Assembly (NCBI GenBank): GCA_019414645.1
Contig: DXLP01000004.1
Coordinates: 1 to 64,000, forward strand
Direction: 5' to 3'
Origin: Collinsella sp.
GTDB lineage: Bacteria > Actinomycetota > Coriobacteriia > Coriobacteriales > Coriobacteriaceae
Length of the DNA: 64,000 bases
The notes beneath the pieces were generated by a model. That model worked only from the letters and a program-made list of their open reading frames with translations, was not told where the DNA came from and made no database searches. Positions 11,338-16,126 of this stretch are shown in pieces. The position numbers and the translations under genes were made by a program. Each line of letters starts with the position of its first letter. Positions within the stretch are counted from its first letter, which is position 1.

Positions 11338-13101
11338 TTAGGCGCGGGTCTTGATCTCCTCGAGCACCTTGGCAACAAACTCGTCGACGCTCATCTGAAC
11401 GGTCTCGTTGGAGCGATCGCGGACGGAGATGTTGCCGGCCTCGACCTCCTTCTCGCCCAGGATGAGCATGTAGGGCACGCGGTCGATACTGCGGGCCTCG
11501 CGGATCTTGTAGCCGATCTTCTCGTCGCGGTCGTCGCAGACCACGCGAATGCCGGCGTCCTCCAGCTTGGCGCACACCTCGTGGGCGTAGTCGCGACTCT
11601 TCTCGGAGACGGGAAGCGCCTTGACCTGCACGGGAGCCAGCCAAGTGGGGAACTTGCCCGCAAAGTGCTCAATCAGAATACCGATGAAGCGCTCGATGGA
11701 GCCAAAGCACACGCGATGCAGCATGATGGGGCGCTTCTTGGTGCCGTCGGCGTCAACGTACTCCAGGTCAAAGTTGAGCGGCATCTGGAAGTCGAGCTGC
11801 ACAGTACCGCACTGCCAGGTACGGCCGAGCGAGTCCTCCAGATGGAAGTCGATCTTGGGGCCGTAGAAGGCGCCGTCGCCCTCGTTGACTTCGTAGTCCA
11901 TGCCCAGCTTCTCCAGAGCGGTGCGCAGACCCTCCTCGGCGCGAGCCCAGTCCTCGTCCGAACCCATGGAGTCCTCGGGGCGGGTGGAAAGCTCAACGTG
12001 ATACTTAAAGCCAAACTTCTGGTACACGGAGTCGATAAGGTTGACCACGCCCACGATCTCGTCGGTCAGCTGGTCGGGACGCACAAACAGGTGGGCGTCG
12101 TCCTGGTTAAAGCAGCGCACGCGGAACAGGCCGTGCAGGGCGCCGCGCAGCTCGTGGCGGTGCACCAGGCCAATCTCGCCGGCGCGGATGGGCAGCTCGC
12201 GATAGGAGTGCGGCTTGGAGGCGTACACCAGCACGCCGCCCGGGCAGTTCATGGGCTTAATGCAGTACTCTTCGTCGTCGATGACGGTGGAGTACATGTT
12301 GTCCTTGTAGTGGTCCCAGTGACCCGAGGTCTTCCACAGCTGCTTGTTCATGATGAGCGGCGTGGAGATCTCCACGTAGCCGGCCTTGTGGTGGATCTCG
12401 CGCCAGTAGTCCAGCAGCGTGTTCTTAAGGATCATGCCGTTGGGCAGGAAGAACGGGAAGCCGGGGGCCTCGTCGCGCATCATAAAGAGGTCCATCTCGC
12501 GGCCGATCTTGCGGTGGTCGCGCTTCTTGGCTTCCTCCAGCATGTGCATGTGCTCGTCGAGCTCTTCCTTGGTGGCAAAGGCGACGCCGTTGATGCGGGT
12601 GAGCATCTTGTTGTCCTTGTCGCCCTTCCAGTAGGCGCCCGAGACGCCGGTGAGCTTAAAGGCCTTAAGGGCCTTGGTGTAGCAGATGTGGGGGCCGACG
12701 CACATGTCGATGTAGTCGCCCTGCTGGTAGAAGGTGATGCGGGCGTCGTCGTCCAGGTCGCCGATGTGCTCGACCTTGTACTTCTCGCCGCGCTCCTCCA
12801 TAAGGGCGATGGCCTCGGCGCGGGGCTTCTCAAAGACGGTGAACTTGAGGTTCTCCTTGACGATCTTTTTCATCTCGGCCTCGATCGCAGGGAAGTCGTC
12901 CTCGCTGATCTTGACGCCCTCGGGCAGGTCGACGTCGTAGTAGAAGCCGTTGTCGGTCGCGGGGCCGTAGGCAAAATCGGCCTGGGGGTACAGGCGCTTG
13001 ATGGCCTGCGCCATGATGTGCGCGGCGGAGTGGCGGATGACGTGCGTGACTTCGTCCTGCGGGAGCTCGGCCACCGAACCGTCATTGTAGAGTGCCTTCA
13101 T
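11338..13101 (-). CDS. thrS: Threonyl-tRNA synthetase
   Basis: A 587-residue class II synthetase that charges tRNA-Thr. The editing domain carries HSAAHIMAQAIKRLYP near residue 29, and the catalytic core has HRHELRGALHGLFRVR (motif 2) and MLHRVCFGSIERF (motif 3), followed by the anticodon-binding domain. Typical bacterial ThrS is ~640 residues with an N-terminal TGS domain; here the protein begins almost directly at the editing domain, so TGS is absent. The start is supported by GAGAGGAG about 12 nt upstream. A strong promoter lies 63 nt upstream. It appears monocistronic, with two terminators downstream. Confidence 0.95.
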   Translation of the reverse strand: MKALYNDGSVAELPQDEVTHVIRHSAAHIMAQAIKRLYPQADFAYGPATDNGFYYDVDLPEGVKISEDDFPAIEAEMKKIVKENLKFTVFEKPRAEAIALMEERGEKYKVEHIGDLDDDARITFYQQGDYIDMCVGPHICYTKALKAFKLTGVSGAYWKGDKDNKMLTRINGVAFATKEELDEHMHMLEEAKKRDHRKIGREMDLFMMRDEAPGFPFFLPNGMILKNTLLDYWREIHHKAGYVEISTPLIMNKQLWKTSGHWDHYKDNMYSTVIDDEEYCIKPMNCPGGVLVYASKPHSYRELPIRAGEIGLVHRHELRGALHGLFRVRCFNQDDAHLFVRPDQLTDEIVGVVNLIDSVYQKFGFKYHVELSTRPEDSMGSDEDWARAEEGLRTALEKLGMDYEVNEGDGAFYGPKIDFHLEDSLGRTWQCGTVQLDFQMPLNFDLEYVDADGTKKRPIMLHRVCFGSIERFIGILIEHFAGKFPTWLAPVQVKALPVSEKSRDYAHEVCAKLEDAGIRVVCDDRDEKIGYKIREARSIDRVPYMLILGEKEVEAGNISVRDRSNETVQMSVDEFVAKVLEEIKTRA

Positions 13102-13128
13102 GGGTATGTTTTCTCCTCTCGGATGCCT

Positions 13129-13198
13129 GATGCAAGTGCGCGCAATGCGCTCGGCGATTTAACTTGCATCATTATAGGCAGGTTGCCTTGGTATACAA
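13129..13198 (-). promoter_or_regulatory. thrS promoter with overlapping dyad
   Basis: On the minus strand, TTGTAT (13193-13198) and TATAAT (13171-13176) are 16 nt apart. A perfect 9-bp dyad GATGCAAGT/ACTTGCATC (13129-13137 with 13162-13170) starts immediately after the -10 box and could be an operator or a leader hairpin. No T-box motif was seen. Confidence 0.7.
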
Positions 13199-13199
13199 G

Positions 13200-13230
13200 C
13201 GCCCGCCGCACCTTAATGGCACGGCGGGCG
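13200..13230 (+). terminator. Strong GC hairpin between thrS and the zinc-ribbon gene
   Basis: A perfect 9-bp stem CGCCCGCCG/CGGCGGGCG (13200-13208 with 13222-13230) is followed by ATTTTCT on the plus strand only. It lies after the minus-strand zinc-ribbon gene, so it may work as a hairpin stop for that transcript, but the T-run faces the other way. Confidence 0.4.
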
Positions 13231-13325
13231 ATTTTCTACGCATGCTTCATCGTGTGGGGCGGGGTGAGGGGCGCGCGTGGCTTGCGGCGTGTCCGTGGCT
13301 TGCGGCCGGCCCGGCGATGGATGCG

Positions 13326-13757
13326 TTACTGGATGCGAGTTCGGCAGTAGGGGCAGACCTTCCAGTGCGCGTCGAGCGGGCGATGGCAGCTGGGGCAGAC
13401 GTTGCGAACCTGGGTATCGCACACCGGGCAAACCACAAAGTCCTTCTCGATGGGTGCGCCGCACTGCGGGCAGGTGCCGTACTGGGCAAGCTGACGCTCG
13501 CGCAGGGCCATGTCCAGCTCCTGCTCCTCGCGGTCGGACGCGTAGGAATGCGGGCGCAGGACCAGGTAGGCGATGAGGCCCACAAACGGGATGAGGGCGA
13601 TGATGCCCCATGCCACGTAGGCGCTGGCGCCGCGGCGGCGAGCGTCGATGAACACATAGACGACCGACAGCACATACAGGGCGATGATAAAGCCGACGAA
13701 GGCATAGACGACGCCCATAAGCTGCGGCGACATGAGCTCGGAGATGTACTTGGACAT
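13326..13757 (-). CDS. Two-helix membrane protein with C-terminal zinc ribbons
   Basis: A 143-residue protein with two hydrophobic helices (about residues 12-34 and 47-66) followed by a cytoplasmic tail with four CxxC knuckles (CPQC, CPVC, CPSC, CPYC), enough for two zinc-ribbon sites. This is the PLD-nuclease-N-like helix pair plus double zinc ribbon layout found in many small actinobacterial proteins; no reaction is known. The start at 13757 has AAAGG 9 nt upstream, while the longer frame to 13802 has none. It reads away from the repeat array at 13857-14475, so the array lies in its upstream region. Confidence 0.65.
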   Translation of the reverse strand: MSKYISELMSPQLMGVVYAFVGFIIALYVLSVVYVFIDARRRGASAYVAWGIIALIPFVGLIAYLVLRPHSYASDREEQELDMALRERQLAQYGTCPQCGAPIEKDFVVCPVCDTQVRNVCPSCHRPLDAHWKVCPYCRTRIQ

Positions 13758-13856
13758 TACGGGTACCTTTCGGAATATTAACAGTTCGGTCAAGTTTACC
13801 ACGGGGTTTGTTTATATGGGACCACGGCTAGGGGCGGGGCTGGCGCGGACACAAAC

Positions 13857-14475
13857 ATCTCAATCTGTAACAGGTGGGAGTGGAATCCGGGTCTAGATGT
13901 TACAGATCGAGACGAACGGGTGCGCCGCCGAGCAAACGTCTCGATCTGTAACAACTGGGACCAAATATCCCATCTTGCTGTTACAGATTGAGACACAGGG
14001 ATCCCTCCCCGATTTCAATCTCGATCTGTAACATCTTGGGCCCCAAAACCCCTCTTACTGTTACAGATCGAGACATTCAAAATCCGTCGGAAGGTTTGTC
14101 TCGATCTGTAAAATCTGCAACCCAAATCATCGGCTAACTGTTACAGATTGAGACAAAAGAAAACGTCCAGGCCGAATGTCTCAATCTGTAACAGTTACTC
14201 GGCAAAGACAGTCCCAGATGTTACAGATTTAGACAAACTATTCTTTCCCCGACTTAAATCTCAATCTGTAACAACAACTCGGTAAATACAGGTCTTACCG
14301 TTACAGATTTGGACATTCGAAACCGACTGATAGGTTCATCTAAATCTGTAACACATGGAACCGATTTTCTCCTCTTGCTGTTACAGATCAAGACAAACGG
14401 AGGGCCCGCCTGGCAAACGTCTCGATCTGTAACATCTGGAACCCAGTTCTTCTGCTTACTGTTACAGAACGAGAC
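13857..14475. repeat. Array of 16 alternating inverted 16-bp repeats (eight ~80-bp units)
   Basis: Sixteen copies of GTCTCGATCTGTAACA alternate strictly with their reverse complement TGTTACAGATCGAGAC. Forward copies start at 13857, 13938, 14018, 14098, 14178, 14258, 14338 and 14419; reverse copies at 13898, 13979, 14059, 14139, 14219, 14299, 14379 and 14460. The forward-to-reverse distance is 41 in all eight units and the reverse-to-forward distance is 39-40. The 23-25-nt spacers are far more diverged than the repeats but keep their length; units 2 and 8 are most alike, suggesting old tandem duplication. No protein frame of quality runs through it. It fills the space between the zinc-ribbon gene (minus) and the FAD operon (plus). 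Confidence 0.9.
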
Positions 14476-14612
14476 AAACCTCTGACACCAGGAGCGACAG
14501 ACAAGGTCACCGATGGTCCTGAGTCTCCCATCGCCTGCCGTTGGCGGATACAGCGGGGCTGTTCGCCGCATTGCCGCCGCACCGGGGGTGTGCAGACCGT
14601 AGGATAGTCCTA

Positions 14613-14627
14613 TTGACAGCCTGTCAA
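14613..14627. promoter_or_regulatory. Candidate operator upstream of the FAD oxidoreductase operon
   Basis: A near-perfect palindrome TTGACAGCCTGTCAA ends 17 nt before the GTG start at 14645 and overlaps the presumed leader. A TAGGAT box (14600-14605) just upstream could be the -10. The regulator is unknown. Confidence 0.4.
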
Positions 14628-14644
14628 CTTGTCTGGGAGGCACC

Positions 14645-16126
14645 GTGGCAGAAACGTTTGATATCGCAATTGTGGGCGCGGGCATCACCGGGTGCGCCAT
14701 CGCGCGGCAGCTCGCGCGCTATGACCTGTCCATTTGCGTGGTCGAAGCGGCCAACGACATCGCCCTGGGCGCGTCGAAGGCCAACGGCGGCCTGGTGCAC
14801 GCCGGCTACGATCCGGCTCCGGGCACGGTAAAGGCGCAGGTCAACGCCCGCGGCTGTGAGCTATATGGCACGTGGGCCCAGGAGCTAGGCTTTTTGTTCC
14901 GCCGCACCGGGTCGATGGTGCTGGGCTTTAACGACGAAGACCGCGCACACCTGGAGAAGCTGCGCCAGAATGGCCTGGCCAACGGCGTACCCGAACTGGC
15001 GATCATTGGCCCCGAGCGCATCCACGAGCTGGAGCCGCGCGCGAGTGCCAAGGCAACCTGCGCGCTGTGGTGCCCCTCGACCGGTTACGTCGACCCATTT
15101 GAAGTGGCCATCGCCGCGCTGGAGAACGCGGTCGCCAACGGCGTGACGTTTATGCGCTCCGCACCGGTTGAGGCCATTGAGGTTGCTGGCTCGCACGACG
15201 AGGACGTTTCAGCCGACGGCAAGGTCCGCGCACGCTTTACGCTGGTGACGCCCGCCGGCGATGTGCGCTGCCGCTATCTGATCAACGCCGCGGGCAACGG
15301 TGCCGCGAACATCTCGCATATGGCCGGCGCCGAGGAGTTTCAGATGGTCTGGCGCCAGGGAAACATCGTGGTGCTGGACAAGGAGCCGCGCGCGCTCATG
15401 CCGCTCTACCCCGTGCCCACGCCGGTGTCCAAGGGCGTTATCGTCACGGGCACGGTCCACGGCAACACCGTGATCACCGCGACCGCCGCCGTGCGCGAGC
15501 CGGGCGACACACAGACCTACGCCGCCGATGTCAACGCGCTGTTAGCGGGCGCGCGCAAACTGGTGCCCGATCTGGACACGCGCCGCGTGGTGCGCGCGTT
15601 TGCCGGCGGACGTCCGGTCATTCAGGGGACCAACGACTTCTTTATTGGGCAGTCGGCCGTGGTGCCGGGGCTGTTCCAGGCGGCGGGCATTCAGTCGCCG
15701 GGCGTGGCGAGCGCGCCGGCCATTGCCGAGCGCATGGAGCACGTGATGCGCGAGGCGGGCGTTGCTTTGCGCGAACGGGCCGATTGGGATCCGATTCGCC
15801 GCGCGCCGGACGACTTCGACCGCGCGCCGCTTGCGCGCAAGGAGGAGCTCATTGAGTCCGGCCCTGCATGGGGGCAGATCGTCTGCCGCTGCGAGACTGT
15901 ACCCGAGGCCGAGATTGTGGCCGCGATTCGACGCCGCCCGGGTGCGGTTTCGGTCGAGGGTGTCAAGCGCCGCTGCCGCGCGGGCATGGGCCGCTGCCAG
16001 AGCGGCTTTTGCCAGAGCCGCGTGGTGGCGATTCTGGCGCGCGAGCTGGGCTGCGACCCCAGCGAGGTGCTGTTGGAGGACACTGGCTCGTGGCTCGTTG
16101 AGGGACCTTTGAAGGGGGTGCGCTAG
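14645..16126 (+). CDS. GlpA-like FAD-dependent oxidoreductase with BFD-type [2Fe-2S] domain
   Basis: A 493-residue protein with an N-terminal FAD-binding Rossmann motif ([18 protein letters not shown], residues 5-22), a DAO-type oxidoreductase domain, and a C-terminal BFD-like [2Fe-2S] domain with [14 protein letters not shown] and GFC cysteines (about residues 415-470). This is the layout of anaerobic glycerol-3-phosphate dehydrogenase subunit A and relatives. The downstream gene overlaps closely (1-nt gap) and encodes a second flavoprotein, then DUF1667, the usual companion set. GTG start with GGGAGG 4 nt upstream. Glycerol-3-phosphate is the likely but unproven substrate; L-2-hydroxyglutarate oxidase-like activity is an alternative. 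Confidence 0.8.

Follow-up and report, generated by a model that had tools for sequence, protein, structure and literature searches.

The window analysed here, i.e. the whole 64-kb stretch of Collinsella DNA, contains an array of short inverted repeats (13858..14474, not assigned to a strand), which sits between the 5' ends of both neighbouring genes. The left neighbour (13326..13802, minus strand) encodes, as read from the sequence, a predicted membrane protein of small size that contains zinc-ribbon motifs, and its 5' end faces the array. The same is true for the right neighbour (14645..16126, plus strand), which encodes a predicted and presumably glpA-like FAD-dependent oxidoreductase. The array consists of 16 half-sites TCTCRATCTGTAACA, which were searched for in the 64-kb window with up to three mismatches and which alternate strictly between the forward and the reverse orientation. 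Ten of them are perfect, five have one mismatch and one has three mismatches. Elsewhere in the window we found three more matches, each with three mismatches, which compares with a chance expectation per 64 kb of 1.44 matches on average and 4 at most in 100 shuffles.

The half-sites are organized in eight units, each of them a 55-bp inverted pair made of a forward half-site, a 25-bp loop and a reverse half-site, which follow each other with a period of 80/81 bp. The loop measures 25 bp in all eight units, and the seven links between them measure 26, 25, 25, 25, 25, 25 and 26 bp. Unit 1 (13858..13912) carries the loop GGTGGGAGTGGAATCCGGGTCTAGA, and a similar first unit exists in 12 of the 20 loci compared. 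It is followed by unit 2 (13939..13993) and by unit 3 (14019..14073), whose loop TCTTGGGCCCCAAAACCCCTCTTAC is found at the same place in several species. One mismatch is located in the forward half-site of unit 4 (14099..14153). After unit 5 (14179..14233) comes the most decayed one, unit 6 (14259..14313), with three mismatches in its reverse half-site, and units 7 (14339..14393) and 8 (14420..14474) complete the array. In a 15-bp register, the half-sites start every 40 bp, and only in two places, where a reverse half-site is linked to a forward one (13898 to 13939, 14379 to 14420), is the distance 41 bp. The 16 copies and the alternation without exception that had been reported in the preliminary description are thus borne out, and the distances of 41 and 39-40 bp given there for 16-mers describe the same geometry. 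Its comparison of 41 bp with about four helical turns needs correction, because the centre-to-centre distance of 40 bp amounts to 3.8 turns at 10.5 bp per turn.

A wider view of the sequence pattern was obtained from 125 distinct units, which define an extended half-site WWYR-TCTCRATCTGTAACA-NNTAG. The centre of the loop is A in 59 and T in 65 units and G or C in a single one, and A or T also occupies position -4 in 245 of the 250 half-units. This indifference between A and T suggests a readout of DNA shape or of the minor groove. The spacers had been described as diverged in sequence, which is correct as far as different units are compared; across units, however, they follow a shared composition pattern, and several of them are inherited across species. 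Along the unit, A/T-rich and G/C-rich patches alternate. Moreover, the loops are polar, since exactly one of the two halves starts with G in 93 of the 125 units (60.6 expected, p = 3e-9), which is most simply attributed to the avoidance of long perfect palindromes; no clear pattern linked this polarity to replication or to the position in the array. Similar loops recur at different loci within one genome, for example at 210838 and 1816669 of G015. One cluster of half-loops combines with 15 partner clusters, and 16 of 5050 loop pairs have just one half in common, compared to 2-4 in five shuffles.

The placement of the arrays was studied in G059, a complete genome of 2,306,349 bp with 60% GC. 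With up to two mismatches, it contains 96 half-site matches, 91 of which fall into 18 arrays (one of these being an overlapping second match) and five of which are solitary. Hence, the genome-wide count of single half-sites that the preliminary description had proposed showed them to be rare. Sixteen of the 18 arrays start with a forward and end with a reverse half-site, the other two having an odd number of detectable half-sites. Likewise, arrays of only two half-sites are in all cases forward then reverse, which applies to eight distinct ones in the genome survey and to both in G059. All 18 arrays are intergenic according to the gene calls of a home-made gene finder. They occupy 7 convergent, 4 divergent and 7 tandem gaps, whereas the 1164 gaps of the whole genome comprise 162, 200 and 802, respectively, which corresponds to an excess in convergent gaps (7/18 vs 162/1164, p = 0.008). 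Two stretches of approximately 0.6 Mb are free of arrays (p = 0.007, a significance inflated by the clustering of the arrays). The neighbouring genes, named by reading, include housekeeping and metabolic genes, and the Nramp and glutamate synthase neighbours agree with the RefSeq annotation of the same locus; no common function was seen among the array neighbours of G059. A placement linked to gene expression was also considered and rejected, as the codon bias of the neighbours did not differ significantly from the background (p = 0.38 for 3' ends and 0.08 for 5' ends, with a weak reference set that holds only 5 of the 20 genes sought).

The array family has a narrow distribution. Among 58 related genomes, the exact half-site occurs in 21, namely with 32-84 copies in 17 and with one or two copies in four, and it is absent from all 23 genomes of other genera in this set. 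The search for the unit across Collinsella genomes, which had likewise been proposed, revealed 23-61 units in 22 of the 43 genomes of the genus, one unit in two and none in 19. In the 21 carriers with at least 95% completeness the load is 35-61 units. When the unit pattern was searched in 396 genomes of Coriobacteriia, 23 matched, all of them from one of 153 genera, and the 356 genomes of other genera contained no unit. The carriers appear to form one group. At the glpA-like locus, arrays exist in all 19 sequences L213-L229, L235 and L240, which are recorded as Collinsella aerofaciens or Collinsella sp., whereas none was found there in C. provencensis, C. stercoris, C. intestinalis, C. tanakaei, C. 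bouchesdurhonensis, C. phocaeensis and three Collinsella sp. records; L241 is too short to judge.

The few units outside the carrier group provide mixed evidence, because mutated, degraded and intact cases occur. In the non-carriers G031 and G029 one unit with a mutated half-site is situated upstream of clpB (L009 and L021, around 1501-1555). The clpB gene of L021 differs from that of G059 at 56 of 222 fourfold sites, which is similar to the 0.26 among the glpA-like genes of carriers and hints at a transfer of the clpB region. The unit pair of G022 is degraded, and the single unit of G014 is intact. The flank of the latter aligns to G059 at 92%, which suggests that this unit was transferred together with flanking DNA. 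Phages and plasmids were also considered as vehicles and rejected. There was no match in 50,697 phage records, and only one of 72,556 plasmid records matched, the 900-kb Collinsella record NZ_OY725717.1. It is labelled plasmid 6 of C. aerofaciens and looks like a piece of chromosome; it carries recA, lexA, an ftsK-like gene and scpB. The only viral contig with an array, L046 (908-2289), represents a prophage end. It starts with host DNA and a two-unit array, followed about 120 bp further on by a gene that reads as a tyrosine-integrase-like gene, i.e. the prophage directly adjoins the array.

The inheritance of the arrays could be followed best at the glpA-like locus, for which 13 carriers, G059, the window and 19 named records (partly the same genomes) were compared. 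A comparison of copy number and spacer change among strains had been proposed in the preliminary description. At this locus, the number of units varies between one and eight per genome by gain and loss in register, and loops and links remain recognizable across species. Of the six closest pairs, five have unequal numbers of units, and both members of the sixth carry a single unit, with 19/55 differences between them. For the first unit, the mean divergence is 0.027 in the half-sites, 0.106 in the loop, 0.146 in the flank and 0.257 at fourfold sites (66 pairs among 12 carriers of the 20 loci, chosen at up to 8/25 loop differences). Four other unit families, selected in the same way and mixing paralogues, gave 0.043-0.099 for half-sites and 0.200-0.239 for loops, and four link families, which also mix paralogues, gave 0.110-0.236. 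At other loci, seven comparisons passed the filters (both flanks mapped, equal unit number) and yielded 0.062 for half-sites (37/600), 0.340 for loops (170/500), 0.167 for links (34/203) and 0.175 for flanks (269/1541). Here, half-sites are below (p = 1e-12) and loops above the flanks (p = 5e-14), whereas the loop of the first unit at the glpA-like locus diverges less than the flank; some units at the other loci seem to have been replaced.

Hence, half-sites are constrained or homogenized in every comparison, although the detection of units, which allows only 5-6 mismatches, favours conserved half-sites. The preliminary description had assumed selection on the half-sites and their geometry and had named half-sites no better conserved than spacers as the finding that would speak against it. 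In orthologous arrays the opposite is true, since half-sites diverge less than loops, flanks and fourfold sites; the low divergence could partly be due to gene conversion among some 90 copies. Many array places are common to several species, and places are partly shared among the carriers. At the rubredoxin locus, 14 of 22 carriers keep units and eight have none (two of these on truncated contigs). A solitary half-site is kept near 1418 in L261, L266, L270 and L274, and G059 has an intact-looking loop without the second half-site at this locus. In the comparison of L213 with L224, divergence drops sharply near the left end of the array at the glpA-like locus for about 0.9 kb, and it seems that a tract of this size was moved together with the array by recombination between the two species.

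No description of the array family was found among the papers listed in searches of the open-licence literature; it might be among the 250 palindromic candidate RNAs of human microbiomes reported in PMC8040213. By architecture, the closest known systems are BIMEs and REPINs. According to PMC2817692, BIMEs share the intergenic and dispersed location, a short repeat that alternates in orientation, the regular spacing and a variable number of modules with the Collinsella arrays. However, their REPs are imperfect palindromes, most of them tagged GTAG or CGTC, those of the GTAG type being associated with RAYT genes, whereas the Collinsella repeat has a fixed 40-bp spacing and lacks a hairpin of its own, and no RAYT gene was found near the arrays examined. 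Half-monomers indeed fold no better than shuffled ones (-0.80 vs -0.95 kcal/mol, n = 250), compared to -9.0 and -7.9 kcal/mol for two known REPs, and membership in the REPs was rejected on this basis. REPINs resemble the Collinsella units even more, given that the minimal unit described in PMC3116915 is an inverted doublet whose 16-mer ends are conserved, with a less conserved spacer at fixed distance, many copies per genome and some ordered tandem clusters. They differ in the REP palindrome and in selected hairpin pairing, as the arms of the Collinsella unit can pair without any compensatory change that keeps the pairing, and no cognate RAYT was found where it was examined. Furthermore, the Collinsella arrays are longer, with up to eight units and a regular link in the window, whereas the largest ordered cluster given there for SBW25 contains four. 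PMC3733652 reports that GTAG/CGTC REP dimers prefer unlike partners, an unexplained feature that parallels the unlike loop halves, and that CGTC repeats are without known transposase as well; those repeats are nevertheless palindromic (CGTC with loops of 4-5 nt) and tagged by a tetranucleotide, neither of which applies to the Collinsella half-site. CRISPR arrays likewise combine short repeats with spacers that vary in sequence but not in length. We agree with the preliminary description that the array is not a CRISPR, as the orientation alternates; moreover, the spacers recur and have a common pattern of composition, and a genome contains about 18 arrays. Altogether, membership in BIMEs and REPINs fails on the REP palindrome and on selected pairing.

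A non-autonomous mobile element similar to REPINs, in which a RAYT-like or other transposase copies the inverted doublet and conservation reflects recent copying and not a host benefit, is conceivable but rather doubtful. In its favour, the minimal unit is a doublet of inverted 15-16-mers that are conserved and keep a fixed end-to-end distance around a less conserved loop, as reported for REPINs in PMC3116915. The similar loops at different loci of one genome and the mutated or degraded units upstream of clpB in two species and in G022 also fit, and at least one Y1_Tnp match was found in each of the 22 carriers. However, Y1_Tnp also matched in 15 of 21 non-carriers, both Y1_Tnp genes of G059 are at least 169 kb away from any array, and one of them has copies of another inverted repeat, 49 bp in length, on either side. 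No half-site was found near these two genes or at the 10 best-scoring other Y1_Tnp loci (seven from carriers), which are mostly strong matches and probably of the IS200 type. The absence of a REP palindrome, the intact unit of the non-carrier G014 and the many array places common to several species also speak against such an element, and an insertion with target duplication was rejected for the places examined, since neither a clean insertion nor a duplication was visible at the two empty sites whose flanks aligned on both sides. As separate observations, the 49-bp repeat, which contains GGGGACAGACT, flanks a RAYT-like gene in inverted orientation (G059, 759716-760492), has partial copies elsewhere in G059 and is a separate REP-like family of Collinsella; in C. 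aerofaciens TSDC17.2-1.1, an IS200/IS605 tnpA (L291, 3954-4595) adjoins a one-half-site remnant of an array. Recombination sites are improbable. Here, a site-specific recombinase would bind both half-sites, and strand exchange close to the centre of the loop would give rise to hybrid loops, in-register deletions and inversions. The polar loops, the loop halves with changing partners, the one to eight units that vary in register and one loop that is exactly inverted in one of the 12 genomes with that unit fit this idea. Nevertheless, the inverted loop sits in perfect arms of 22 bp, and hairpin-mediated inversion between perfect arms is an ordinary mutation; frequent loop inversion was discarded on account of this being a single case, and no inversion was seen by eye at the glpA-like locus. 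A core of 25 bp is also long for tyrosine recombinases, which usually have a shorter one, the half-sharing analysis did not resolve break positions in hybrid loops, and the avoidance of long perfect palindromes explains the polarity equally well.

A chain of RNA hairpins acting as terminators, mRNA-stabilizing stems or processed RNAs, which had been among the first suggestions, is similarly unlikely. It is true that the array folds far better than shuffled sequences (z -14.8, 20 shuffles), but any inverted-repeat array would do the same, and the enrichment in convergent gaps is also in favour of this reading. However, the stems show no covariation. In 51 units, 95.3% of the cells in paired half-site columns pair, compared to 95.2% after shuffling, with a covariation of 0.053 vs 0.051, and pairing is missing at column 5 in 11 units and at column 4 in 14 units. 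Moreover, the loop halves are less complementary than expected, with 3.50 of 11 positions vs 4.55 (sd 0.15) or 43.0% vs 50.6% in shuffles, all 500 of which were at least as high. Terminator-like sites are near chance (2 vs 0.9, sd 1.1), 4 of the 18 arrays lie between divergent genes, and Rfam 15 gave six weak matches over 12800-15600, all below the gathering score. Hairpins as the selected feature were rejected as main reading because of the absent covariation and the anti-complementary loop halves. The absence of compensatory changes, the anti-complementary loop halves and the A/T at the loop centre argue instead for sites that a protein reads in double-stranded DNA. It is very improbable that such a protein would be DNA gyrase or another general protein of the HU/IHF type. 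A precedent exists in E. coli, where BIME-2 binds gyrase and BIME-1 binds IHF according to PMC2817692, and the enrichment in convergent gaps and the alternating A/T-rich and G/C-rich patches are in line with such a role. Against it, the 10-bp component of the periodicity (4.04) is exceeded by the 16-bp (4.59) and the 40-bp component (4.83), values from 16 units without significance test, and the array neighbours show no significant enrichment of genes with high codon bias, as measured with the weak five-gene reference. In addition, the near-invariant 15-bp half-site would be more specific than needed, and relatives in the genus without arrays should possess the same general proteins.

We regard the array as a member of an interspersed element family that is specific to the clade and of the BIME/REPIN type, with half-sites as putative protein sites, a reading for and against which we give even weight; a binding array had also been among the suggestions of the preliminary description. 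Half-site positions vary independently across the unit, and thus each half-site seems to be read singly. Together with the A/T indifference, the fixed spacing and the variable letters in between, this led us to propose a clade-specific binding protein; we infer the protein, its binding and its effect from sequence, and the sites are accordingly termed putative. The 55-bp units are tandemly amplified at the 80-bp period within intergenic DNA. In the proposed mechanism, a sequence-specific protein would read each half-site as double-stranded DNA, probably by contacts to TCTCRATCTGTAACA and to the A/T positions that lie in the middle of the loop and immediately next to the half-site on its outer side. 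Proteins bound to adjacent half-sites 40 bp apart may cooperate and thereby bend or wrap the DNA, and the resulting repeated nucleoprotein structure between genes could contribute to chromosome organization or insulation. Gain and loss of units in register would alter the copy number, and ectopic conversion would reshuffle the loops.

More tentatively, and with considerable doubt, one may think of a dedicated, sequence-specific protein with an architectural role, which might have arisen by domestication of a transposase or recombinase. Assembled every 40 bp on half-sites of alternating orientation in the almost twenty intergenic arrays, it would form regularly bent nucleoprotein segments that punctuate the chromosome in the C. 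aerofaciens clade. As part of the same tentative reading, such a system would be defined by the geometry of its half-sites and not by a palindromic repeat. Collinsella aerofaciens is among the abundant bacteria of the human gut, and the array family is present at similar load in 22 genomes of its group. If the arrays belong to a mobile element, they would represent a REPIN-like population without REP palindrome or known transposase and would widen the range of such elements. If a dedicated protein binds the array, it would represent a new system for chromosome organization or element maintenance, the geometry of which is unusually strict.
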